In this document: one piece after another, positions 3,071-10,591 of the stretch
Layout: every line of letters starts with the position of its first letter
Position numbering within the stretch: position 1 is the stretch's first letter
Source: Vineibacter terrae
Lineage (GTDB): Bacteria; Pseudomonadota; Alphaproteobacteria; Reyranellales; Reyranellaceae
DNA: 64,000 nucleotides
Direction: 5' to 3'
NCBI RefSeq assembly: GCF_008039615.1
Contig: NZ_VDUZ01000011.1
Span: 62,001 to 126,000, forward strand
Position numbers and translations under genes: made by a program
The notes under the pieces: model-generated
Seen by the model: the letters and a program-made list of their open reading frames with translations, nothing else
Database searches by the model: none
What the model was told of the DNA's origin: nothing

Positions 3071-3248
3071 GGATGGTGGTCGGTGCGGCTGAGGCTGTGC
3101 TCCGCCTGGAGCAATGCGCCTCCGCTGGCGCGGAGGAGGGGTGCGCAGCGATGTTTGAGCGTTTGTCCCGGCAGCGTCCGGCCCGGGTCCGGGCGGCGCA
3201 GCGACCCGGCATGGCCGGGTGGGACCGCGCGTGCCCGGGATCGATGCC

Positions 3249-4634
3249 ATGACCGGCCGCGCTGAAGACCTGCCGCCCGGCACATCGTTTCTCACGGTGC
3301 GCGGACGCCGCCACGGCCGTGTCATGGAATTGTTGGGGGCCGGCGGCCAGGGCGCCGTCTACACCGTCGACATCGACGGCTCGCGCTTTGCCCTGAAGTG
3401 GTATCACGACAGCATCGTCAAGGTTGACAAGACGCTGCGCGCGCGGCTGTCGCGCGCGATCGGCGTCGGGCCGCCCACCGACCGCTTCCTGTGGCCGATC
3501 GACCTGGTCGAGGTCGCCAACAGCGGCAGCTTCGGCTACGTGATGCCGTTGCGTCAGTCGGAATATGCCGGCATGCGCGGCCTGATCGCGCGGCCGCCCA
3601 ACCGCCTGGAGCTGCCGCTGGCCAAGCGCGTGATGGTCTGCCACAGCGTGGCGCACAATTTCCTGGAGCTGCATGCGCGTGGCTTCTGCTACCAGGACAT
3701 CAACTTCGGCAACATCTTCCTCAATCCCAACAGCGGCGATGTCGTCATCTGCGACAACGACAACGTCGATGTCGACGGCATGGACGCCTCGGTGTTCGGC
3801 ACCCGCAAGTTCATGGCGCCGGAAGTGGTGATGCGCCGCGCGCTGCCCAGCACCAAGACCGACCTGTTCTCGATGGCGGTGCTGTTCTTCTACATCCTGC
3901 ACGGCTGGCACCCGCTCGACGGCCGCCGCGAGGCCGAGATCCAGATCATGGATTCGTCGGCCGAGGTGCACCTGTACGGCAGCCATCCGGTGTTCCTGTT
4001 CGATCCCACCGACCCCGCCAACGGTCCGGTGCAGGGCTTCCACGAGCCGATCGTGGCGCGCTGGAACTCGCTGACGCCGGCGTTGCGCACGTTGCTCGTG
4101 CGCTCCTTCACGATCGGCCTGCGCCAGCCCGGCGAGCGCATCCTGGAGCCGGAATGGCGTGGCGCCTTCGCGCGCATGGTCGATGCCATCATCCCGTGCC
4201 GCGCCTGCGGCTTCGAGCAGTCGCTCCATCTGGAAGCCGGCGGCCAGTCCCTGGCGCCGCACGCCTGCGTCGCCTGCGGCGCGCCGCTGGTCAAGCCGCC
4301 GGTCCTGCTGTTCGGGCGCGACGTCGTGACGTTGGCGCCGGGCGGCCGCATCGCGCTGCGCCATCTCGATCCCGACCGGTCGCTGGATTTCACCAGCCAT
4401 GGCGGCGTCATCGAGGCGCATCCCGAGCGGCCCAATATCTGGGGCTTGCGCAACCTGACCAACACGGCGTGGCGGGCGACCCTGCCCGATGCCGGCGCGG
4501 TGACCGTGGAGCCGGGCCGGGCCGTGCGCATCATGCACGGTGCCGTCATTGATTTCGGCCGTCGCACGGGGCGTCTTCTTGCCGTTGCCGCGGCGCCGGC
4601 CGCGCCGAGGCAACCGCAATGGCAGACACGATGA
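3249..4634 (+). CDS. Ser/Thr protein kinase with zinc ribbon and FHA-like C-terminus (YegI-like)
   Basis: A 461-residue eukaryotic-type kinase. The glycine loop is GAGGQGAVY (residues 30-38) and the ATP-anchoring lysine is K50 in ALKWY. The catalytic loop reads YQDINFGN, with D150 and N155. The metal-binding DFG is replaced by D169-N-D, and FMAPEVV marks the activation segment. Four cysteines (C317, C320, C340, C343) form a zinc ribbon. The last ~100 residues resemble the C-terminal module of the PrsW-like protein at 5593. No membrane segment is present, so it is cytoplasmic. It is the first gene of a one-direction cluster and overlaps the phosphatase gene by 16 bp. An in-frame GTG at 3219 is an alternative start. 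The kinase/PP2C/vWA set matches YegI/YegK/YegL; the substrate is unknown. Confidence 0.88.
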   Translation: MTGRAEDLPPGTSFLTVRGRRHGRVMELLGAGGQGAVYTVDIDGSRFALKWYHDSIVKVDKTLRARLSRAIGVGPPTDRFLWPIDLVEVANSGSFGYVMPLRQSEYAGMRGLIARPPNRLELPLAKRVMVCHSVAHNFLELHARGFCYQDINFGNIFLNPNSGDVVICDNDNVDVDGMDASVFGTRKFMAPEVVMRRALPSTKTDLFSMAVLFFYILHGWHPLDGRREAEIQIMDSSAEVHLYGSHPVFLFDPTDPANGPVQGFHEPIVARWNSLTPALRTLLVRSFTIGLRQPGERILEPEWRGAFARMVDAIIPCRACGFEQSLHLEAGGQSLAPHACVACGAPLVKPPVLLFGRDVVTLAPGGRIALRHLDPDRSLDFTSHGGVIEAHPERPNIWGLRNLTNTAWRATLPDAGAVTVEPGRAVRIMHGAVIDFGRRTGRLLAVAAAPAAPRQPQWQTR

Positions 4635-5503
4635 TGGTCAACGGCACAGCGTGGTCGCTGGGCGGCGCCTCGGTGCGCGGCGCTGCGCATGTCCGGCGCG
4701 GCCAGCCCAACCAGGACGCCGTGGGCTGGGTACCGCCGGTCGCCGGCGCCGAGGTGACCGGCGCGTTCGCCGCCGCCGTTTCCGACGGGCATGGCGGCGC
4801 GGCCTACTACAGGTCGGAAGTCGGCGCGCGGCTGGCGGTCGAGGTCGCCAAGGCGGCCCTGGGCCGGTTCCTGGAGGCGCCGCTGCCGTCCGACGATGCC
4901 GGTCCGCTCGTGGCCGAGATCCTGGCGACGTGGCGGCAGGCGGTGATGCATGACCTGGCCGGCAATCCGGTCGAGAGCGACTGGGTCGAGTCGGAGCAGG
5001 AGAAGCTGCTGCCCTACGGCGCCACCCTCGCCGCCGTCGCCATCCGGCCGGACTGGCTGATGGCGCTGCAGATCGGCGACGGCGATATGCTGTTCGGCTA
5101 TCCGGACGGCCGGGTCGAGCGGCCGCTGCCCAACGACGAGGGGCTGTTCGGCGAGCAGACCTATTCGCTGTGCCTGGACAACGCCGCCGAGCGCTTTCGC
5201 GTGCGCACCCGGCGGCGGATCGAGGGCCAGCCCTGGCCCGATTTCGTCATGCTGTCGACCGACGGCGTCTCGAAATCCTTCGCCGACGAGAGGACCTTTC
5301 TGTCGATCGCGCGTGACTATCGCACGTCGGTGCGCAAGATAGGTCTGCGCGGCGTGCTCGACCAGCTTGAGAAATGGCTGAGCGACGTCTCGCACCGGGG
5401 CAGCGGCGACGATGTGACCTTGTGCCTGGCGGTCGGCGCGCCGTCAGCGGCCCCCGCCGCTGCGGCGCCAGCCGAGGAGCGGGCGCCGGAGACATCCGTG
5501 TGA
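4619..5503 (+). CDS. PP2C-family Ser/Thr phosphatase (YegK-like)
   Basis: A 294-residue metal-dependent phosphatase that most likely removes phosphate from targets of the kinase encoded immediately upstream. PP2C motifs are in order: NQDA (D33), VSDGHGG (D56), QIGDGDML (residues 151-158), LSTDGVSKSF (D215) and GSGDDVT (D264/D265). These supply the aspartates expected for the dimetal centre. There is no signal peptide or membrane span. The 16-bp overlap with the kinase gene implies translational coupling and matched expression. The last ~25 residues are a disordered Ala/Pro/Glu tail. Confidence 0.92.
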   Translation: MADTMMVNGTAWSLGGASVRGAAHVRRGQPNQDAVGWVPPVAGAEVTGAFAAAVSDGHGGAAYYRSEVGARLAVEVAKAALGRFLEAPLPSDDAGPLVAEILATWRQAVMHDLAGNPVESDWVESEQEKLLPYGATLAAVAIRPDWLMALQIGDGDMLFGYPDGRVERPLPNDEGLFGEQTYSLCLDNAAERFRVRTRRRIEGQPWPDFVMLSTDGVSKSFADERTFLSIARDYRTSVRKIGLRGVLDQLEKWLSDVSHRGSGDDVTLCLAVGAPSAAPAAAAPAEERAPETSV

Positions 5504-5592
5504 GGCTGGGGCCGCACGGGAGGCCGCGCGGCGTCGACCGCCGGCTGGCGACAAGCGCTGGTCGCAAGACCACGGGGAGATGAGGGTACAGA

Positions 5593-7197
5593 ATGGCCAA
5601 CCAAATGCCGCCGGTCCCGCGGGATCACGACGAGGCGTCGTTCTCCGAAATCGTGCCGATCCGGTCGGGCAAGATCAGCCTGTTCAAGAGCCCGCTGTTC
5701 ATCTTCGGGATCGTGACGGCGATCGCGACCGTGCTGCTGTTCGGCCTGATGCAGGGCCTGATGAACGCGCCGACGCCGCAGGAGCGCTACGGCGTGTTCC
5801 GGTCGCTGACCATGGTGATCACGGCCTACCTGCTGCTGCTCACCCTGTTCGCGATCTTCCTGTACTCCCGCACCGATCGCAAGATCTGGTACTTCGCGTT
5901 TCCCGTCGTGGTGATCTGCATCCTGCTGACGCCGCCGTTCCTGCGCCTGTTCTTCTTCGTCTTCCGCGAGATGCTGCCGGGCGGCTCCAACCTCACCGGC
6001 TCGCCGATCTTCTTCAACGCCTTCATCGGCATGTTCTTCGGCGCCGGGCTGATGGAAGAGCTGATGAAGGCGGTCGCCGTGCTGTTCGGCGCCTCGCTGA
6101 CGATCTTCGCCGCGCGCATGCGCTCGGTCGTGCCGGGGACGCTCTACGACCTGCTGCGCGTGCGCGGTCCGCTCGACGGCATCCTGATGGGCGTCGCCGC
6201 CGGCGCCGGCTTCATCTTCATCGAGACCTGGGACCAGTACGTCCCCAACATCGTGGCCCAGGTCTTCAAGGCCACGAAGGGCAACGACCTGGGCGCGTTC
6301 GGGCTCGGCCTGATGCTGCTCTTCCCGCGCGTCATCAACGGGCTGGCCGGCCACATGGCCTATGCCGGCATCTTCGGCTACTTCATCGGGCTGGCCGTCG
6401 TGCGCCCCCGCAAGGCGCCGATGCTGCTGCTGATCGGCTGGCTGACCGCCGCGATCCTGCACGCGCTGTGGAACTCGGTCGGCACCATCTGGGGCGGGCT
6501 CAGCTATGTCGTGGCGGCGGCCACCGTCATCGTGCTGGTGGCCTGCCTGCTGAAGGCGCGCCAGCTCGAGGCCAGCATCTTCGGCCGCAGCGTCGAGACC
6601 TCAGGCTCGATCATCGTCGGCATGCCCGGCTCCGGCCAGGTGCCGGGAATGGCGCCGGCGCCGCAATGGGGTGGCCAGGCCGCGCCGCCGTCGCCGCCGC
6701 AATGGGGCGCCGCCGCGCCGCGGCCGGCCCAGTGGGGGGCGCCGGCCGGCGGCTTCCCGGGCGCGCCGCCGCCGGGCGGGTTCCCCGGCGCCATGCCGGG
6801 CGGTGCGCCGGGCGCCTATCCGGGCGCGCCGCCGCAGCAGCCCTACCCCTATCCGGCGTCGCAGGCGGCGACCACGCCGATGCAGCCTACCATGCCGGTC
6901 CAGGCCGCGCTGGCGCTGCACGTGGCCGGTGCCAACGTGCCGCTGACGCCCGGCGCGCGCATCGATCTCTCCATGATCCCGGCGCTGGGCGAGCGCGGCC
7001 GCGGCCTGGTCGGCGAGGTCTCGGTGCATCCGCGCAACCCCGGTGTCATCGGATTGAAGAACCTCGGCAACGCGACGTGGTATGCTCGGCTGCGCGACGG
7101 ATCGGTCCAGCCGGTCGAGCCGCAGCGCAATGTGCGCCTGGCGGGCGGGATCAGCATTGACTTCGGCGGCGGCATCCAGGGCGCCGTCGTCGGCTGA
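5593..7197 (+). CDS. PrsW-family intramembrane protease with FHA-like C-terminal module
   Basis: A 534-residue polytopic membrane protein. PrsW-family motifs are present: EE..K (E155, E156, K159), the GFIFIE motif (E211), a helix with H254, and H290..N294 in LHALWNS. PrsW-type glutamic proteases cut membrane-bound anti-sigma factors elsewhere. Unlike ordinary PrsW it carries a Pro/Gly-rich linker (residues ~345-430) containing repeated PQWG motifs, then a ~95-residue soluble module. That module shares the pattern GL+NL.N..W, V.P.R.V.L..G..IDFG with the kinase encoded at 3249. The gene lies 89 bp after the phosphatase gene in the same direction. Its substrate may be one of the two single-span proteins downstream; that is inference. 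Confidence 0.82.
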   Translation: MANQMPPVPRDHDEASFSEIVPIRSGKISLFKSPLFIFGIVTAIATVLLFGLMQGLMNAPTPQERYGVFRSLTMVITAYLLLLTLFAIFLYSRTDRKIWYFAFPVVVICILLTPPFLRLFFFVFREMLPGGSNLTGSPIFFNAFIGMFFGAGLMEELMKAVAVLFGASLTIFAARMRSVVPGTLYDLLRVRGPLDGILMGVAAGAGFIFIETWDQYVPNIVAQVFKATKGNDLGAFGLGLMLLFPRVINGLAGHMAYAGIFGYFIGLAVVRPRKAPMLLLIGWLTAAILHALWNSVGTIWGGLSYVVAAATVIVLVACLLKARQLEASIFGRSVETSGSIIVGMPGSGQVPGMAPAPQWGGQAAPPSPPQWGAAAPRPAQWGAPAGGFPGAPPPGGFPGAMPGGAPGAYPGAPPQQPYPYPASQAATTPMQPTMPVQAALALHVAGANVPLTPGARIDLSMIPALGERGRGLVGEVSVHPRNPGVIGLKNLGNATWYARLRDGSVQPVEPQRNVRLAGGISIDFGGGIQGAVVG

Positions 7198-7217: not shown

Positions 7218-7910
7218 ATGGCAGCGGAACTTCCGAGTCTCAGCACGACGCGCATGGCGCGGCGCCAGCTTCATGTGATCCTGGCGCTCGACTGCTCCGG
7301 CTCCATGACCGGCGACAAGATCGCGTCGCTGAACTACGCCATGCGCGCCGCCATCCCGGAGATGCGCGCCGCGGCTGACGACAATCCGGAAACCGACGTG
7401 CTGATCCGCGTGCTGCGCTTCTCGTCGCGCGCCGAATGGCACCTCGCGGTGCCGACGCCGGTGGCCCAGTTCGAATGGCAGGATGTCGCCGCCGGCGGCG
7501 AGACCAGCATGGGCGAGGCCTTGGCCATGATTGCCGATGTCATGGGGCCGGAGCGCATGCCCGGACGCCAGCTGCCGCCGGTGCTGGTGCTGGTCTCGGA
7601 CGGCCAGCCTTCGGACGATTTCGAGATCGGGCTGAAGCGGCTGTTCGATTCGCCCTATGGCAGCCGCGCGCTGCGGGTGGCGATCGCAATCGGCAGCGAC
7701 GCCGACTACGAAGTCCTCGAGCGCTTCATTGCGCACCCTGAGTTCAAGCCGTTGCGGGCCAACAACGCGCAAGATTTGGTGAATCGCATCAAATGGGCGA
7801 CCACGGCGCCTGTGAAGTCGGTGTCATCGCCCAGCAATGCCCCCGATCCGGTGACCCAGCTCGCGCTCGATGCCGACCGTCAGCGGCGGTCGAGCGACAT
7901 GGTGTGGTGA
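7218..7910 (+). CDS. TerY/YegL-like vWA domain protein
   Basis: A 230-residue cytoplasmic von Willebrand factor A protein. A complete metal-ion-dependent adhesion site is visible: DCSGSM (D25, S27, S29), T96 in GGETSMGEAL and D128 in VSDGQPSDD. Length and the early position of the MIDAS motif match TerY/YegL. In the TerY-P triad the vWA protein is found with a kinase and a PP2C phosphatase, which is exactly the context here. It probably acts as a metal-dependent scaffold. The ~45 residues after the domain are Ser/Pro-rich and may be a flexible, phosphorylatable tail (inference). The gene starts 20 bp after the PrsW-like gene. Confidence 0.9.
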   Translation: MAAELPSLSTTRMARRQLHVILALDCSGSMTGDKIASLNYAMRAAIPEMRAAADDNPETDVLIRVLRFSSRAEWHLAVPTPVAQFEWQDVAAGGETSMGEALAMIADVMGPERMPGRQLPPVLVLVSDGQPSDDFEIGLKRLFDSPYGSRALRVAIAIGSDADYEVLERFIAHPEFKPLRANNAQDLVNRIKWATTAPVKSVSSPSNAPDPVTQLALDADRQRRSSDMVW

Positions 7911-7959
7911 CCGGGTCGGATGCCGTGCGCGGCAGCGCGATCCAACGGGGGAGAGCGTG

Positions 7960-9048
7960 ATGTTTCCTGACGACGACCGCGTCGTGGCGTTGTTTGCCGA
8001 GGCGCGGCGCAAGTTCGGCGACGACATCCTGCGCGACCCCCGCCGCAGCGTGCCGCTGCTGGCCGACCAGGCGCCTGAGCTGCGCGACACCATCAAGGCC
8101 GTGGCCGATGCGATCGGTGTCGGGGCGGCGCAGCGTCTGCGCGTTGCCGGCGACCAGGGGGCGGAGTTTCACCGCCTGGCGGCGGAGGTCGCGGGCCGCG
8201 CCGGCGTGGCGTTGCCGGATGCGATGGCCGGTGTGCGTATCGCGGCCCGGCTTGGGGGTGCCCCCGCCGGACCGGCTGCAGCGGCGGCGCCGCAGGAGCG
8301 CAGCTGGGTAGGGGGCTCGACGGTGGCCGGTGGGCCGGCCCCCGGCGGGCAAGGCTACGGCGCACCCGGCCAAGGAGCGCCGGGCTATGGGGCGCCGGGC
8401 TATGGCGCCGGCGCCACGCCGCAGGAGTTCATGAAGGGCAAGTGGGGCGTCGCGGCCCTGGTCGGCGTCGGCATCCTGGTCGTGGTCGGCCTCTCGACCG
8501 GCAACGAAAAGCCGGCGCCGCAGCAGCCTCAGGCGCCGCAAGCCCCGCAGGCCCCTCAAGGCGGCGACCCGCCGCCCGGCCGCCCGCCGCAGGGCGGGCC
8601 GCCACCGGGCGGGCGGGCGCCGCCGCAATCGGCCGGACTGCCCATCATCGTGCCGCCGGGCGGCAACCAGCAGGTGCCGGCCATCGGGGTGCGCGAGTCG
8701 CAGCAGGCCTATGTGCTCGAGTTCGGCGCCTCGGCCGGCAACCAGATCTATCGCGTCATCGTTGGCGTCTCGAAGCAGGGATGGGGGGCCGGGTTCGTGG
8801 CCGTCGCCAGCCAGGGCGCCAACGAGCCCGAGAGCGTCTCGAAGGCGAGCCCGTTCCAGCTCACCAACCAGAACAACAACGCCATCCGCGTGCTGCAGCC
8901 GCAATGGGAGCGCGATGGCCTCAACATCGGCGCGATGTGCGTGGCCTTCGTGCAGTCCGGCGCTCGCGATGTGCAGCTGCGCGGCAGCAATGTCTGTGTG
9001 CTGGCAGACAACTGCAACCAGATGATCGGCTGCGGAATGGTGCAATGA
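7960..9048 (+). CDS. Single-span membrane protein with helical N-domain, Pro/Gly linker and Cys-rich C-terminal domain
   Basis: A 362-residue protein of unrecognised family. Order of parts: a helical N-terminal domain (residues 1-100) with the pattern DPRR..PLLAD..PELRD.I; a RSWVGGS motif at 114-120; a Gly/Tyr/Pro-rich linker; one hydrophobic span (~162-178); a Pro/Gln-rich stretch; then a ~145-residue domain with several cysteines near its end (the last at ..CGMVQ). The N-domain and SWVGG motif recur in the next protein, so the two are architectural paralogues with different output domains. I chose the ATG at 7960 because GGGGGAG precedes it; in-frame extension to 7870 would overlap the vWA gene. 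By position it belongs to the kinase/phosphatase/vWA system. Confidence 0.75.
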   Translation: MFPDDDRVVALFAEARRKFGDDILRDPRRSVPLLADQAPELRDTIKAVADAIGVGAAQRLRVAGDQGAEFHRLAAEVAGRAGVALPDAMAGVRIAARLGGAPAGPAAAAAPQERSWVGGSTVAGGPAPGGQGYGAPGQGAPGYGAPGYGAGATPQEFMKGKWGVAALVGVGILVVVGLSTGNEKPAPQQPQAPQAPQAPQGGDPPPGRPPQGGPPPGGRAPPQSAGLPIIVPPGGNQQVPAIGVRESQQAYVLEFGASAGNQIYRVIVGVSKQGWGAGFVAVASQGANEPESVSKASPFQLTNQNNNAIRVLQPQWERDGLNIGAMCVAFVQSGARDVQLRGSNVCVLADNCNQMIGCGMVQ

Positions 9049-9139: not shown

Positions 9140-10591
9140 ATGGCGGCTGACAGTTACGATGCGCTCGCGAAGGTTCTGCGCGAGCTGCCGGACAGATTCG
9201 GCGCGGCGGTGTTCTCAGATCGGCGGCGTGTCGTGTCGGTTCTGTCCGACCGGGTTCCCGAGGCACGGCGCGAGATCAAGGTCCTGGGCAGCGCCATCGA
9301 CGACGGCGTGTTCGACGCCCTGTCCAACGCGCGGCCCGAGCAGATCGGCCTCGAGATCGACCGGCTGGCGGCCCGTATCGAGACCAATCTGGGCATCCGC
9401 AGCGACATCGCCCTGCCGGTTGTGCGCGCCTGTGCCCACGGCCTGGGGCGTGGGCCGCTGCCGTCAGAGTACGGCATGGTCGCTCCGGTCCAGCCGGTAT
9501 CGATGCCACGCCAGCCGGACGGCTCCTGGGTGGGCGGCTCGGCGCCGGCGGGTGGGATGCCGCAAGCCGGCATGTATCCCGGTGGCACGCCATCGGCGCC
9601 CATTCCCCGCCAGCCGGACGGCTCCTGGGTGGGCGTGTCGACGCCGGTCGGGGCGCCACCGCAATACGGCGCGCCGCCGCCCCAATATCCGCCGCAGGGC
9701 TGGCCGTCGTCAGGGCCGGGAATGGCGCCGCCGCCGGGCGCGATGTATCCGGGCGCGCCGGTGGCGCCGGCCAAGAGCGGCGGCTGGGTGAAAGGGCTGC
9801 TGATCGGGATCGGGGCCATCGTCGGTACCCTGGTCGTGCTGTACATCATCGGTTCGATGATGGAGCCGTCGCCACCGCCGCCGGATCCGAAACCCCCGAC
9901 AAAGCCGACGGGGCCAGGGACCACCACGCCGAAGACGGGACCGACCGGGCCAACGGGACCGACCGGGCCGACTGGCCCCGGGACCACCTCGCCAAAGACG
10001 GCCCAACCGGGCACCGATCCCGTCACCAAGCCGGAGCGTGAGCCGACGACGCCACCATCGGGTCCGACCACCACGACGCCGCAGCAGCCGCCATCGTCGC
10101 CGCCATCATCACCGCCGTCGGGCTCATACGCCGAGGAGAGCGTCGATTTCGGCGTGGCGCCGCAGCGCACGTTGCAAAGCAATATCGGCAGCCCGACCCC
10201 GACCTCGATGCCGCCGGGCATCGGCCGCATCCTGTCGACCCAGGCGCTCGAGAACGAGATCCGCAAGGGCACGGACTTCCTGCTGGTCGACGTGCTGGAA
10301 AACCCGCATCCGCGCACCCTGGTCAAGGCGCGCTACATCCCGTACGGCGGCCGCGGCGGCAGCTTCACCGACCTGGCGCAGCAGCAACTCGCCAGCGAGC
10401 TGGCCAGCCTGACCAACAACCGGACCAACTATCCGATCGTGTTCTTTTGCGCCGGCGTGCGCTGCTGGGAGTCCTACAACGCCGTGCTGCGGGCCTACGA
10501 AGCCGGCTACCGCAATCTCTACTGGTATCGCGGCGGCATCGCGGCCTGGACCGCCGCCGGCCTGCAGACGCAGCCGCTGGGTAGCCGCTGA
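9140..10591 (+). CDS. Single-span membrane protein with shared N-domain, collagen-like stretch and rhodanese domain
   Basis: A 483-residue protein. Residues 1-105 match the N-domain of the preceding protein (RF then D.RR....L.D..PE.R.EI..L). Two copies of RQPDGSWVG follow (residues ~124-132 and 157-165). After a Pro-rich linker there is one hydrophobic span (~216-238), then a Pro/Thr-rich segment with four GPT triplets (residues 267-281), and a C-terminal rhodanese-like domain (~360-480). The rhodanese active loop is CAGVRCW with C437 and C442, resembling the CxxCW-type rhodaneses linked to PQQ-dependent catabolism. The domain could move sulfane sulfur or sense redox state. It is the last gene of the cluster, and the terminator at 10603 lies just beyond. 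Confidence 0.8.
   Translation: MAADSYDALAKVLRELPDRFGAAVFSDRRRVVSVLSDRVPEARREIKVLGSAIDDGVFDALSNARPEQIGLEIDRLAARIETNLGIRSDIALPVVRACAHGLGRGPLPSEYGMVAPVQPVSMPRQPDGSWVGGSAPAGGMPQAGMYPGGTPSAPIPRQPDGSWVGVSTPVGAPPQYGAPPPQYPPQGWPSSGPGMAPPPGAMYPGAPVAPAKSGGWVKGLLIGIGAIVGTLVVLYIIGSMMEPSPPPPDPKPPTKPTGPGTTTPKTGPTGPTGPTGPTGPGTTSPKTAQPGTDPVTKPEREPTTPPSGPTTTTPQQPPSSPPSSPPSGSYAEESVDFGVAPQRTLQSNIGSPTPTSMPPGIGRILSTQALENEIRKGTDFLLVDVLENPHPRTLVKARYIPYGGRGGSFTDLAQQQLASELASLTNNRTNYPIVFFCAGVRCWESYNAVLRAYEAGYRNLYWYRGGIAAWTAAGLQTQPLGSR

Follow-up and report, generated by a model that had tools for sequence, protein, structure and literature searches.

Why should a protein kinase and an intramembrane protease from one gene cluster end in the same domain? 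The question is raised by a signaling gene cluster of the soil bacterium Vineibacter terrae, whose 8.76 Mb genome holds the 64,000 nucleotides analyzed here (contig NZ_VDUZ01000011.1, positions 62,001 to 126,000; hereafter the window). Between positions 3219 and 10591, the plus strand encodes in sequence a kinase, a PP2C phosphatase, a PrsW-type protease, a VWA protein and two membrane-anchored proteins that we call P392 and RHOD. A preliminary description had reported a common C-terminal module on the kinase and the PrsW-like protease, compared it with an FHA fold and proposed that it lets both proteins bind one phosphorylated partner. The explanation that we favor overall, while holding it at somewhat less than even confidence, is that the tail is a divergent FHA-fold docking module recruiting the kinase and PrsW to shared clients.

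The relationship between the two tails is clear. A BLASTP comparison of the whole kinase with the whole PrsW protein returned a single strong segment, located at the C-termini, in which 32 of 78 residues are identical (41%, pairwise E 3e-11). Additionally, the two tails aligned locally with a score of 132, whereas 5000 shuffled versions averaged 29.3 (SD 5.3) and never exceeded 63, so that the real score lies 19 standard deviations above the shuffled mean. The C-terminal domains of about 90 residues are homologous, as the preliminary description held, and the residue order that it listed, H..+P...GL+NL.N..W.A.L.....V.P.R.V.L..G..IDFG, is present in both. Its placement of the module in the last ~100 residues agrees with the predicted strands, which give 4302-4580 and 6913-7191; its open reading frames (ORFs) were correctly positioned, and the start of its interval, 4300, agrees with the domain boundary in the kinase. 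That interval, 4300-7197, also includes the PP2C gene (4619-5503), which went unmentioned. A profile built from the two tails found no third copy in the genome, with the next row at E 0.46.

To predict the fold of the domain, we ran AlphaFold2 on inputs that were kept separate, namely the kinase tail with its zinc ribbon from 23 kinase-only rows and the PrsW tail from 25 PrsW-only rows. The models reached a predicted local distance difference test (pLDDT) score of 86.9 for the kinase tail and 91.5 for the PrsW tail. In Foldseek searches against the PDB, the top E values were 1.4e-3 and 1.1e-3, respectively, each with a probability of 1.00, and no row fell under E 0.001 for either tail. Nearly all of the 50 matches listed for the kinase model either have FHA in their title or belong to proteins or complexes that contain an FHA domain. 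The matches listed for the PrsW model are FHA plus SMAD MH2, a fold related to FHA. VIA-align also paired both models best with solved FHA domains, aligning the kinase tail to 5w7x_A (APLF FHA; Z 9.5, 91 residues, 3.0 Å) and the PrsW tail to 5w7w_A (APLF FHA; Z 10.2, 96 residues, 2.7 Å). These matches span nearly the entire domain in the predicted models. Structure prediction thus gives the same FHA-type fold for both C-termini, in line with the early guess.

The comparison of sequence profiles gave a more qualified answer. Against 25 alphaproteobacterial FHAs, the profile-profile score was 27.7 (pairwise P 1e-4), a value reached by none of 100 column shuffles (best 14.8) and above that of the reversed profile (17.3). 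This is consistent with an FHA relationship, but with probabilities of 36-59% the similarity is weak by itself, so the case for the fold rests on structure prediction. Searches of solved structures by sequence found no FHA with either profile, the PrsW tail giving one match at E 0.18 and the kinase tail giving zinc-ribbon matches plus chance ones. When 25 PrsW and 23 kinase members were compared with Pfam, the families listed at E <= 10 included no FHA model (in one scan, 25 of 34 families were listed). DUF4880 did match (best E 0.023), over a stretch of 18 residues in the one member inspected, and we took this as chance. Taken together, the predicted FHA fold of both tails is well supported.

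A canonical FHA domain is recognized by its phosphothreonine-site pattern, GR...[ST]xxH...NG. Although 19 of the 25 reference FHAs show this pattern, none of the 54 FHA-like domains does, bearing out the earlier remark that the standard signature is absent. The position aligned with the FHA asparagine is N in 2 of 32 rows and mostly P, T, A or S in the remainder, and the SxxH positions are unconserved in the family. Many of the kinases do contain a GR; in our reading of the alignment and model, it appears to sit in the first hairpin rather than after strand 3. The FHA-like domain has conserved residues of its own: one Asn is invariant, and among 32 rows a Trp is kept in 31, a His in 27 and the Pro next to it in 30. 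With the pattern in 0 of 54 domains and no Pfam FHA match listed for 48 members, the proposal that both tails bind a phosphorylated partner is not supported. A putative common partner is still plausible, but the observations favor a non-canonical peptide site or a pairing surface over phospho-binding.

We wanted to know how widely the paired tails occur. A species-level collection yielded 24 loci, among which L027/L028 and L034/L035 are close pairs. Every complete kinase tail has the domain (22 of 22; contig ends truncate those of L026 and L043), and so does PrsW wherever its gene is complete (21 of 21 loci). The PrsW set amounts to 24 proteins, since L037 has two PrsW genes and L038 has three; the PrsW of L023 is cut by a contig end and falls outside the count. 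Among named organisms, Reyranella sp. CPCC 100927 has one of the nearest kinase loci. The same motifs recur on both copies in several families of the Alphaproteobacteria and in gammaproteobacterial bins. The gene order kinase-PP2C-PrsW-VWA-partner(s) is conserved, with differing gene directions at L040 and L041. In the Enterovirga loci, the three (L038, 4690-9229) and two (L037, 10320-13341) PrsW genes are in tandem, and their FHA-like tails do not have the HP motif.

At large, the domain is rare. Of 37 genomes sampled from the family to which the window belongs, 8 were positive, comprising 4 of 4 from its own genus and 4 of 4 from a second genus. Scans of the class and phylum found it in at least 4 of 289 genomes (two weak matches) and at least 7 of 398 genomes (one weak match), these counts being lower bounds because the best 17 and best 12 candidates per genome, respectively, were scored. 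After the regions were fetched, none of the weak matches from three genomes (L006/L088, L007/L089 and L051/L087; E 0.001-0.01) was counted as a member: L088 gave no match on re-search, the L089 frame appears non-coding, and L087 reads, we presume, as a FecR protein.

Three genes of the cluster correspond to the TerY-P triad, described as a VWA protein, a PP2C phosphatase and a kinase with a C-terminal zinc ribbon (PMC11090510). All three parts have homologs in the window. Its VWA protein is 27-29% identical to plasmid proteins annotated as TerY-C/VWA (E ~1e-8), its kinase matches Ter-plasmid kinases over residues 26-363 (E ~1e-20), and its phosphatase matches the PP2C family PF13672 (E 7e-38). 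Beyond the triad, the window encodes a PrsW bearing the common FHA-like tail, along with two single-pass proteins related by an N-terminal domain (NTD). Judged by homology, PrsW and the two anchored proteins extend a triad of the TerY-P type. We do not adopt an anti-phage defence label: the PADLOC matches, PD-T4-6 and mad6, cover the kinase domain only, and no other operon member matched at E 0.01.

The domain also occurs on triad kinases without PrsW in the fetched stretch. Four of these (L083-L086, E 1e-18 to 1e-20) come from one family of the same phylum, and of their stretches only that of L085 reaches far enough to reveal VWA and PP2C as well. A kinase from a PrsW-less triad on a Methylomonas plasmid matches at E 2e-20, a Prevotella plasmid kinase with VWA and PP2C annotated alongside at E 9e-14, and a Nostoc kinase more weakly at E 1.7e-7. 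Because PrsW-less triad kinases also carry the domain, the kinase copy is probably the older and the PrsW copy derived. A tree of the 54 domains separates kinase and PrsW groups with 3 label changes, of which 1 is forced, and is consistent with one old copying event; built on 88 columns and with many open forks, it is weak and does not support a direction of transfer. The kinase rows of L034 and L035 fall within the PrsW group, where long branches meet. In classical Ter-plasmid kinases (Raoultella, Azospirillum, Bartonella and Klebsiella sp.), the tails that follow the zinc ribbon (L095, 3977-5476; L098, 4941-6431) align in register by eye and in hhalign, at a non-significant level (P 0.02, probability 2.3%), and their profile had no match to FHA (P 0.085). 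As one set, triad-kinase tails from Rhodoferax, Pseudanabaena, Nostoc and Deinococcus matched over 33 columns only (probability 32%) and had no match to FHA.

If the tails steer two enzymes to common partners, P392 and RHOD are the obvious neighbors to consider. Both have a helical NTD, a low-complexity linker and one predicted transmembrane segment, and they differ in their C-terminal domains. The charges around the last PrsW transmembrane segment, as we read them, put its tail inside, and hydropathy together with flanking charges suggests that this tail and both partner linkers are cytosolic. The RHOD linker is probably cytosolic on another ground, since the rhodanese-like part resembles the PQQ-associated CXXCW family (TIGR03865 PQQ_CXXCW, E 3.6e-19, below the curated cut-off), whose members are exported. 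After the NTD, 25 of 32 distinct NTD proteins carry the pattern W[VAIL]G.[ST], compared to 0.31 expected from shuffles. It typically takes the form (D/E)xW(V/A)GxS, with D or E within the four preceding residues in 25 of 27 copies, and the neighboring positions are also conserved. Other ORFs of at least 150 residues in the same loci show the pattern in 13 of 895 cases, most of them within the membrane-spanning parts of PrsW and one in an alternative frame of the L035 partner gene. None of eight NTD-bearing ORFs beside PrsW-less kinases (L083-L085, L093) has the linker motif. We consider W[VAIL]Gx[ST] the best candidate ligand of the FHA-like domain.

The NTD itself is found in other company. 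On the Methylomonas sp. AM2-LC plasmid (L093, 10447-14998), five ORFs with relatives of the P392/RHOD NTD adjoin the PrsW-less triad, and the four compared with Pfam carry in addition Sel1 repeats, a Tim44-like domain, a Clp amino-terminal domain and a ClpX zinc finger. This suggests that the NTD serves these triads as a general adaptor and that proteolysis recurs among them.

How could such a system work? We propose that both tails are copies of a divergent FHA-fold domain, now without its phosphothreonine site and serving as a docking module. It would have arrived with the kinase of a TerY-P-type triad and later been copied onto the PrsW of the same operon. The cytosolic tails would bring kinase and protease to the same clients, most likely P392 and RHOD, by way of the sequence acidic-x-W[VAIL]Gx[ST] in the predicted cytosolic linkers. 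With the VWA protein as the sensing part, the kinase and the counter-acting PP2C would determine whether the client linker is phosphorylated, and cleavage of the client's membrane anchor would fall to PrsW, so that the signal becomes regulated proteolysis. The direction of transfer, the membrane topology, the binding of the motif and the cleavage of clients are the steps that we infer. To our knowledge, no target of a TerY-P-type kinase has been described. A docking domain on a kinase and on a protease of the same operon, with a motif in the neighboring proteins, offers concrete candidates for a kinase substrate, a protease substrate and a recognition peptide. If true, this would be a bacterial route from kinase signaling to regulated intramembrane proteolysis.

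The furthest-reaching form of this proposal holds that a phosphate-independent FHA-fold module reads W[VAIL]Gx[ST] and recruits the kinase and the intramembrane protease to the same membrane-anchored clients, the module being an overlooked general domain of TerY-P kinases. We regard it as possible but on the doubtful side. Several observations count against the docking proposal in general. The motif pattern was chosen after viewing the sequences, so the expectation of 0.31 is a guide and not a test, and the topology comes from a simple hydropathy scan. The strict motif is absent in 7 of 32 NTD proteins (L022, L035, L036, L040, L041, L042 and L044-P392); L022 has a one-residue-longer variant, twice, and L035 is a truncated frame with the motif in another frame. 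L036 and L042 have canonical PrsW tails and yet no strict motif, which speaks against a strict link. By eye, L040 and L041 do not have either, but given L036 and L042 we do not claim a coupling of motif and canonical tail. Additionally, the reader of the motif could be the VWA protein, the kinase domain or another protein instead.

Other functions of the tails have to be weighed against docking on clients. The FHA-like tails could pair with each other and hold the kinase on PrsW at the membrane, reading no third partner. The two enzymes that bear the copies are encoded in one operon, both copies occur at each of the 21 loci where PrsW is complete, and the canonical ligand site is gone; however, kinases of PrsW-less triads carry the domain, making pairing with PrsW an unlikely original role, although this is compatible with homodimers. 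We judge tail pairing unlikely, while counting it a genuine contender. Another reading, a weaker version of the idea in the preliminary description, makes the domain a phosphopeptide reader with a rebuilt site, in which, for example, the conserved H-P, N and W replace R/S/N. The predicted FHA fold, a kinase and a phosphatase in the same operon, the invariant N and the near-invariant W and P would suit such a reader, and the linker motif holds S/T (by construction of the pattern) among conserved neighbors. Set against these are the same departures from the canonical site that undercut a phosphorylated partner, at the pattern, the FHA-Asn position and SxxH, and we find a rebuilt site rather improbable. 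The least probable, and in our view a distant prospect, is that each tail folds back on its own enzyme as a structural or regulatory beta-sandwich, left by an old duplication without a shared partner. It would account for PrsW copies that drifted (no HP in L037, L038, L040 and L041) while the protease motifs were mostly kept, but not easily for the retention of the domain at all loci or for the same motifs on both copies in Alphaproteobacteria and gammaproteobacterial bins.

Parts of this system have precedents. PrsW domains fused to FHA, PilZ, cNMP-binding or zinc-ribbon domains are reported from several bacteria as probable signaling peptidases (PMC3482391). These resemble the window's protease in joining PrsW to a cytosolic signaling domain, whereas its FHA-like domain goes unrecognized by Pfam, has no phospho-signature and is duplicated on the operon kinase; the supplement of that paper may list such proteins. 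TerY-P-type triads are tied to tellurite resistance, restriction and defence systems (PMC11090510). Kinases with a zinc ribbon plus a beta-rich domain have also been published, with the same architecture and neighbors as the window kinase, and their beta-rich domain probably corresponds to the FHA-like domain described here; the published passage gives it no FHA-like label and mentions no PrsW. Compared with canonical FHA domains (PF00498; APLF, DgcB and MDC1 structures), ours share the fold by AlphaFold2, Foldseek and VIA-align and differ in having no phosphothreonine signature. We found no PrsW-kinase operon with a shared domain in the open-access literature, the search leaving aside supplements and subscription papers, including that of Anantharaman 2012, reportedly the original TerY-P paper. 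As far as searched, the FHA-fold assignment without a phospho-site, the duplication onto PrsW inside a triad operon and the linker motif are new.

Table 1. Genes and predicted features of the extended triad cluster in the window.
Feature	Position	Strand	Evidence
Ser/Thr protein kinase, 471 aa: kinase domain, zinc ribbon, FHA-like C-terminal domain	3219..4634	+	PF00069 E 1.2e-13
Kinase zinc ribbon CxxC...CxxC, after catalytic domain	4197..4277	+	four invariant Cys; RNA polymerase subunit P zinc ribbon match E 1e-4
Kinase FHA-like domain (predicted)	4302..4580	+	AlphaFold2 strands, residues 68-160 of modelled tail; FHA structure matches
PP2C-type phosphatase	4619..5503	+	PF13672 E 7e-38
PrsW-like intramembrane metalloprotease, long low-complexity linker, FHA-like tail	5593..7197	+	PF13367 E 2.3e-25
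PrsW FHA-like domain (predicted)	6913..7191	+	AlphaFold2 model mean pLDDT 91.5; FHA structure matches
VWA protein, TerY-like	7218..7910	+	PF00092 E 1.1e-7; tblastn to plasmid TerY-C/VWA proteins E ~1e-8
P392 (392 residues), membrane-anchored partner: helical NTD, linker, one transmembrane segment, C-terminal domain	7870..9048	+	no Pfam family
P392 helical NTD	7978..8139	+	profile E 8.7e-22
P392 linker WVGGS motif, candidate docking/phosphorylation motif	8305..8319	+	
P392 predicted transmembrane segment	8428..8505	+	Kyte-Doolittle scan
RHOD, membrane-anchored partner: NTD, linker, one transmembrane segment, rhodanese-like domain	9140..10591	+	PF00581 E 1.8e-6
RHOD helical NTD	9164..9322	+	profile E 6.5e-25
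RHOD linker WVGGS motif, copy 1	9527..9541	+	
RHOD linker WVGVS motif, copy 2	9626..9640	+	
RHOD predicted transmembrane segment	9779..9865	+	Kyte-Doolittle scan

Among the nine window proteins scanned against Pfam, none is a Ter or restriction gene product. The zinc-ribbon cysteines of the kinase (alignment columns C33, C36, C56 and C59) are invariant in 23 of 23 aligned kinases. The window's PrsW has the EE..K, FxxxE, GHMAYA and LHALWN motifs, which most copies across the loci retain; EE..K is absent by pattern in L040, and other single motifs are gone in a few. Its linker contains repeated QWG segments within a Pro/Gly/Ala-rich stretch at ~6650-6750. Finally, P392-type proteins have a conserved C-terminal domain, outside any Pfam family, that contains several Cys and closes with a CG pair near the C-terminus.

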